Of a stretch of DNA of 51,629 nt, positions 3 to 51,629 are shown in pieces. The position numbers and the translations under genes were made by a program. Under the pieces are notes generated by a model, which was given only the letters and a program-made list of their open reading frames with translations, ran no database searches and was not told the origin of the DNA. Each line of letters opens with the position of its first letter. Positions within the stretch are counted from its first letter, which is position 1. The stretch lies in contig JALNLN010000011.1 in NCBI GenBank assembly GCA_023267855.1, positions 1-51,629 of the forward strand, read 5' to 3'. Source of the stretch: Candidatus Geocrenenecus dongiae (GTDB lineage: Archaea > Thermoproteota > Nitrososphaeria_A > Caldarchaeales > Wolframiiraptoraceae).

Positions 3-125
3 TAGCCCGGGCCGGATTCGAACCGGCGTCCCCGGGGTTCTCCTCTATCCTAAGATCCAGAGCCCGGGATCCCTGACCCTATACAGTATCTGACCAGCAT
101 AGTTTGGCCGCTAGACGACCGGGCT
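3..125 (-). tRNA. tRNA-Gln (anticodon CTG) with two introns
   Basis: The minus strand folds as a tRNA. The acceptor AGCCCGG (125-119) pairs with CCGGGCT (10-4), the discriminator A is at 3, and the T arm is GCCGG/CCGGC around TTCGAAT. The 123-nt gene is about 49 nt too long. A 74-nt mature form is obtained by removing about 38-56 (canonical position 37/38, after anticodon C60-T59-G58 and G57) and about 73-102 in the D loop. After removal the D stem GTCT pairs with GGAT and the anticodon stem CCGGG with CCCGG. Exact intron edges can slide by a few bases. The body resembles archaeal tRNA-Gln. A TATA-like element lies 26 bp upstream. Confidence 0.85.
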
Positions 126-150: not shown

Positions 151-158
151 TATAAAAC
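151..158 (-). promoter_or_regulatory. TATA-like box of the tRNA-Gln gene
   Basis: The minus strand reads GTTTTATA here, about 26 bp before the tRNA 5' end at 125, which is the normal archaeal TBP spacing. Confidence 0.5.
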
Positions 159-51409: not shown

Positions 51410-51629
51410 ACGATACATCCCTTTTTGAGATTCAATATATCCTGAAACCGAAAGCCTAGAAGTCCACGTGGACGATGACTTTCAATTCTCTTTTTGAGAT
51501 TCATTATTATGTAGAAGTGAAAGCAGAAAGGATTCAAGTGCTTTCACTTCTCTTTTTGAGATTCGAAAAAAGAGGCTGAGCTCTATACTGCTGAGGACAA
51601 TTACACTTTCAATTCTCTTTTTGAGATTC
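51410..51629 (-). CRISPR. Leader-distal end of a CRISPR array, continuing off the right edge
   Basis: Four 24-nt repeat units lie at 51410-51433 (degenerate, only its right 13 nt fully conserved), 51479-51502, 51541-51564 (one substitution) and 51606-51629 (ends with the window). Spacers are 45, 38 and 41 nt. Read on the minus strand the repeat ends AATTGAAAG, the usual archaeal 5' crRNA handle, so transcription is probably leftward and the decayed left unit is the trailer end. No cas genes are in the window. Confidence 0.95.
51513..51551. repeat. 13-bp perfect inverted repeat joining spacer 2 and repeat 3
   Basis: AGAAGTGAAAGCA (51513-51525) in spacer 2 is the exact reverse complement of TGCTTTCACTTCT (51539-51551), which spans the spacer edge and the variant third repeat, leaving a 13-nt loop. 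In the crRNA the 5' handle would pair with its own spacer. Confidence 0.9.

Follow-up and report, generated by a model that had tools for sequence, protein, structure and literature searches.

The window, that is, the whole analysed stretch of 51,629 nt, very probably contains a working tRNA-Gln(CUG) gene whose transcript carries two protein-spliced archaeal introns, judging from its letters and their predicted folding. The parts of the gene are arranged, from 5′ to 3′, as exon AGCCCGGTCGTCTAGCGGCCAA, intron actatgctggtcagatactgtatagggtcag, exon GGATCCCGGGCTCTGG, intron atcttaggatagaggagaa, and exon CCCCGGGGACGCCGGTTCGAATCCGGCCCGGGCTA (Table 1). The preliminary description had placed one intron after the anticodon at about 38-56, and this interval turned out to be exact, with a length of 19 nt. 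It had placed the other in the D loop at about 73-102. An intron does lie there, while its boundary is 73-103 and its length is 31 nt. Likewise, the excision of two pieces stands, while the removed and mature sizes are 50 nt (31 + 19) and 73 nt rather than 49 and 74 nt. The predicted anticodon CUG follows U33 within a complete cloverleaf, as expected for tRNA-Gln(CUG). In archaea, tRNA-Gln is charged with glutamine via the amidation of Glu-tRNA-Gln.

Table 1. Predicted features of the tRNA-Gln(CTG) gene and its surroundings (positions in the window).
Feature	Position	Strand	Remarks
tRNA-Gln(CTG) gene	3-125, read 125 to 3	minus	123 nt; two introns; mature 73 nt without CCA
Exon 1, AGCCCGGTCGTCTAGCGGCCAA	104..125	minus	acceptor 5′ strand, D-stem 5′ strand, and D loop
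D-arm intron, 31 nt	73..103	minus	between A21 and G22
Exon strand GGCC of the D-arm 4-bp helix	106..109	minus	then bulge AA|A; covariation
Intron strand GGTC of the D-arm 4-bp helix	75..78	minus	then AG|G; covariation
Conserved motif CTGGTCAGA	89..97	minus	within the D-arm intron hairpin
Exon 2	57..72	minus	D-stem 3′ strand, anticodon-stem 5′ strand, and anticodon loop up to G37
Anticodon CTG (Gln)	58..60	minus	T33 directly before
Canonical 37/38 intron, 19 nt	38..56	minus	helix CTCT/GGAG; bulges GG|A and AA|C; outer helix CCGGG/CCCGG
Exon 3	3..37	minus	C38, anticodon-stem 3′ strand, variable loop, T arm, acceptor 3′ strand, and discriminator A73
TATA-box-like TTTATA	151..156	minus	start 31 nt upstream of the mature 5′ end
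Contig-end overlap with contig C14	1..127 / G000:C14:3088-3214		exact, 127 bp; assembly join at the tRNA gene

Two introns and their junctions

The window gene was scored by a search over bulge-helix-bulge (BHB) introns and intron pairs, and a home-made tRNA enumerator was used. The two-intron solution came top with 39.5, followed by another pair at 35.2. The best one-intron solution (88 nt, implausible) scored 31.1, and no intronless solution was found by the BHB search of this gene. When the interior was shuffled with the acceptor and T arm kept, none of the 300 shuffles matched the two-intron score, and their maximum was 34.2. Thus, the tRNA-Gln(CTG) with two introns of the preliminary description was borne out, and the better single-intron fold that might have spoken against it was sought and did not appear. 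Both junction helices, GGCC/GGUC and CUCU/GGAG, are present in the unconstrained minimum-energy fold. The folding energy of the whole precursor is ordinary compared with shuffles (z -1.24).

The 37/38 intron lies at the canonical position, one nucleotide 3′ of the anticodon (G37|intron|C38). Its junction is a strict BHB motif: two 3-nt bulges (GGA and AAC) and a 4-bp helix CTCT/GGAG, flanked by an outer helix of six pairs, which is the anticodon stem, and an inner helix of three pairs (TCT/AGA). In the minimum-energy fold, ATC/GAT is preferred over TCT/AGA as the inner helix. The D-arm intron lies at a non-canonical position, and its junction has the 4-bp GGCC/GGTC helix, the bulge AA|A, and an inner helix of six pairs (CTATGC/GTATAG). 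The outer helix of the strict motif is absent from this junction, where a single adjoining pair is followed by a 3x2 internal loop and then by the D stem. The D-arm junction is thus relaxed rather than strict. Both junctions carry the BHB signature that the preliminary description had asked to be checked, and the possibility that none exists in the D arm did not materialise, since a 4-bp helix that covaries among relatives is present together with bulge cut sites.

Splicing of this tRNA can be inferred from the sequence, the predicted fold, covariation, conservation, and the enzyme genes. In the folded transcript, the D-loop exon bases GGCC would pair with a GGUC shortly before the 3′ end of the D-arm intron; the anticodon-loop exon bases CUCU would pair with GGAG of the second intron. 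A heteromeric splicing endonuclease (alpha + beta) would then cut in the bulges at 21/22 and 37/38, the precise 5′ cut in the D arm presumably following from the general BHB cutting rule. The exons would be joined into the 73-nt tRNA-Gln(CUG), whose anticodon loop would read CUCUGGC, by a ligase, presumably RtcB. The expression, exact cuts, and ligation of the window tRNA-Gln are all predictions of this model.

The window gene was missed by ARAGORN and by Rfam at its gathering score; the match to the Rfam tRNA model is 24.4 bits, below the cut-off. A Caldarchaeales genome can thus falsely seem to have no tRNA-Gln, as the gene is invisible at these default cut-offs. The tRNA genes of the genome were surveyed by a family search plus local stretches. 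Since the enumerator misplaced introns in several relatives (e.g., L085, L086, L106, L130, and L143), the D-arm introns were re-read with the exon pattern.

Conservation of the D-arm intron and its loop motif

The host is a heat-loving Geocrenenecus of the order Caldarchaeales and not a member of Thermoproteales. The relatives collected with an exon-only pattern are Caldarchaeales and include Candidatus Geocrenenecus huangii and arthurdayi, Terraquivivens, Wolframiiraptor, Calditenuis, Pelearchaeum, and Caldarchaeum. The preliminary description had named Thermoproteales, which does not apply to this genome, and a few other archaea, which does cover Caldarchaeales. This order is synonymous with Aigarchaeota, and one of its members, Wolframiiraptor gerlachensis, is in cultivation (PMC9246946).

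The same genome (G000) has a sister gene for tRNA-Gln(TTG) at G000:C7:28688-28813. Its D-arm intron is at the same site and near-identical over 31 nt, while its 37/38 intron is 22 nt in length, differs from that of Gln(CTG), and has a matching helix CTTT/GAAG. The D-arm intron was found at one site in both Gln isoacceptors in the families f1, f2, and f4 as well as f3 (G023 and G026), that is, in all four. G024 and G037 lack it in Gln(TTG), where another, intronless gene is present (L116 and L134). Excision at 21/22 restores GTCT-AGCGG(C/T)CAA-GGAT, the D arm of intronless homologues; GTCT-AGCGGCCAA-GGAT occurs intron-free in L116, L134, and L140. The 4-bp helix of the D arm is fully paired in 64 of 68 Caldarchaeales rows, which include both Gln genes of G000, versus 2% of shuffled introns. 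Among 64 distinct introns, its third pair is C-G in 51, T-A in nine, and T-G in four, and the two-sided change is a covariation of exon and intron. An intron at the same exon site was also found in Pyrobaculum, a Thermoproteus MAG, Bathyarchaeota MAGs, and an Aenigmatarchaeota MAG. An intron kept at one site in two isoacceptors across a whole order is a good test case for the passivity of archaeal tRNA introns.

In the shortest Gln D-arm introns (L168 and L220; Calditenuaceae SKYB46 and SKYB91), the D loop looks as if repeated in tandem (AGCGGCCAA / ACTGGCCAG / AGGGCCAA). Because GGCC can pair with itself, such a repeat would be enough to make the splice helix. Tandem duplication of the D loop is therefore a possible route of intron origin.

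The hairpin loop of the D-arm intron carries the motif CTGGYCAGA. Its core GGYCRGA was found in 60 of the 64 distinct Caldarchaeales introns, which are otherwise unalignable and were gathered by the exon pattern and not by the motif, versus 1.15% of shuffled introns. Within the motif, each position carries 1.1-2.0 bits of information, compared with about 0.1-0.6 bits for most positions on either side; anchoring on GGYYRG slightly favours the core. The motif is also present in five of seven Bathyarchaeota rows, and four of five Geocrenenecus genomes have it in the Leu(TAA) intron of the D arm. In 12 genomes of the family to which the window belongs, Ser(CGA) has the motif in its 37/38 intron; they were found by a search that used the motif itself and so is uninformative on its frequency there. 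The motif resembles the D loop, and mature tRNA-Met genes match it too. In G000, the tRNA-Leu(TAA) gene at G000:C3:188-321 (L053, L242) has two introns, one of which shares the D-arm site of Gln and contains the motif TGGTCAGA. Among relatives, G001 and G004 have only the D-arm intron in Leu(TAA), and G002 has both.

The limits of the D-arm intron might be drawn otherwise, with GTCT of the D-stem exon pairing with AGAY of the intron motif and a cut after G15 (AG|C). The enumerator chose this cut in L093, L098, L102, L108, L110, L111, L115, L117, L118, L125, and L127, and the motif is complementary to the D-arm TCT and GGYC. However, the cut after G15 would leave an irregular mature D loop, different in each species, whereas the product of the 21/22 cut is identical to the intronless homologues. 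In the window gene, the cut after G15 ranks only sixth and yields an odd 79-nt tRNA. Furthermore, the motif does not track the exon C/T change, and Leu(TAA) keeps the motif although the TCT partner is absent. The cut after G15 is thus very improbable, and pairing with the D arm (TCT + GGYC) was ruled out as the reason for the motif on the same two grounds, the missing covariation and the Leu genes. Two other roles of the motif were considered. Pairing with the Gln anticodon loop (YCAGA with UNUGG) was rejected as a general reason: the anticodon of Leu(TAA) does not match, and yet its D-arm introns have kept the motif. Replacement of G18-G19 in T-loop docking is unsupported, as Ser(CGA) has the motif in its anticodon intron with the D loop intact, and many same-site introns in other archaea lack it.

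It is extremely improbable that the gene, read with cuts at 21/22 and 37/38, is no more than a broken tRNA copy at the edge of a contig, whether a pseudogene or an assembly artefact. The window corresponds to contig C24 of G000 (1.44 Mb, 39 contigs, 98% estimated completeness); the gene lies at its start, and exactly 127 bp overlap with the end of contig C14, as such a reading might expect. Yet this overlap links C14 to C24 through the entire gene, and by its exactness it rules out the C14 copy as a second gene. The consensus positions of the tRNA are intact, both intron sites are conserved throughout the order, and the TATA box is in place. No further Gln(CTG) gene was found in G000 by the family search and local stretches, leaving this as the sole one found.

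Other contigs in G000 (C23, C25, and C30) likewise stop within or next to tRNA genes. Perhaps co-occurring relatives share only tRNA-length words with this genome and the contigs end there. At the other end of the window, two CRISPR repeats (Rfam CRISPR-DR45) lie at 51479-51502 and 51606-51629, and the contig breaks at the second.

Antisense of the D loop in the 37/38 intron

In Geocrenenecus, Wolframiiraptor, and Pelearchaeum, I found that 6-9 nt of the Gln(TTG) 37/38 intron are perfectly complementary to the D loop AGCGGCCAA. In the sister gene of G000, this is TTGGCCGCT, a perfect 9-nt complement that forms the loop of the intron hairpin. The longest complementary run averages 5.4 nt in the 34 Gln(TTG) introns and 3.4 nt in shuffles. 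As a group, the Gln(CTG) introns show no excess of complement (2.9 versus 3.0 nt in shuffles). The exceptions are those of a few Wolframiiraptor-like genomes, among which G005 has a 12-nt complement of GTCTAGCGGCCA. The antisense element is absent from Calditenuaceae. Wherever it exists, the exon is invariant. In the centroid fold of the G000 Gln(TTG) precursor, the D loop pairs with the antisense element and the D-arm junction is not formed.

Short conserved sequences in tRNA-Gln introns seem to have had no earlier explanation. I tentatively suggest, with considerable doubt, that tRNA introns may carry functional elements beyond the splice motif, judging from sequence patterns and modelled folds. 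These would be the CTGGYCAGA loop, in the D-arm introns of Gln and Leu(TAA) and the 37/38 intron of Ser(CGA), and the D-loop antisense TTGGCCGC, matching as many as 12 D-arm nucleotides, in the 37/38 intron of Gln(TTG). The antisense element could block the D-arm junction and so enforce an order in which the two introns are removed, or the loop could be read by some factor. Ordered splicing of the Gln introns is thus a possibility raised by the predicted fold. If confirmed, a 9-nt loop motif in unalignable introns together with an antisense of the D loop would directly show that the introns have a function.

Splicing enzymes and known systems

A pair of splicing endonuclease subunit genes had been predicted from the introns, and both were found: G000 has two PF01974 genes, for separate catalytic and non-catalytic subunits. 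The alpha subunit (G000:C29) can be aligned from end to end with the endonucleases of Aeropyrum pernix (3p1z) and Sulfolobus tokodaii (2cv8). The catalytic Tyr, His, and Lys are all retained, and K36, in an ungapped part of the 3p1z alignment, falls opposite K44 of the Crenarchaea-specific loop of A. pernix. The lysine of this loop is reportedly needed for the broad substrate specificity of the enzyme (PMC6379350). Aligned to 1a79, the beta subunit (G000:C38) shows Phe instead of the catalytic Tyr and Pro instead of the catalytic His. A PF01974 match was found in all 44 genomes of the order, with exactly two in most. G000 also has an RtcB gene. The predicted combination of a catalytic subunit with the loop lysine and a separate non-catalytic subunit is that of the (alpha-beta)2 endonuclease of A. 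pernix (3p1z, 3ajv).

In its predicted fold, tRNA-Glu(CTC) of G000 (G000:C22:34800-35250, L051) needs two introns at unusual sites, near the start of the D stem and inside the anticodon loop. A probable tRNA-Trp with a long intron lies at G000:C32:72603-72680 (L050).

Two-intron tRNA genes of this sort are already known. For Candidatus Caldiarchaeum subterraneum, three multi-intron tRNAs were listed by 2012, Glu[CUG], Leu[UAA], and Thr[GGU], the first two having two introns each (PMC3293823). Since CUG is a Gln anticodon, the "Glu[CUG]" entry is most likely a tRNA-Gln(CUG), and it is probably the orthologue of the window gene. In G024, taken as a C. subterraneum genome, Gln(CTG) has introns at 21/22 and 37/38 (L115) like the window gene, while the intron bodies differ in length and sequence and Gln(TTG) has no introns (L116). 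Non-canonical and multiple introns in Thermoproteales, their coupling to the (alpha-beta)2 endonuclease, and intron transposition have been reviewed (PMC4033280), and that review cites Sugahara 2008 and Fujishima 2010 for the multi-intron tRNA genes of this order. In Pyrobaculum sp. WP30, site 21/22 of Gln likewise carries an intron (L166, L216), although this organism belongs to another lineage and its introns (AGGAAAACCCGGCTTG) are without the CTGGYCAGA motif. What the window gene and the Thermoproteales genes have in common is several BHB introns per gene, non-canonical sites, and a heteromeric endonuclease.
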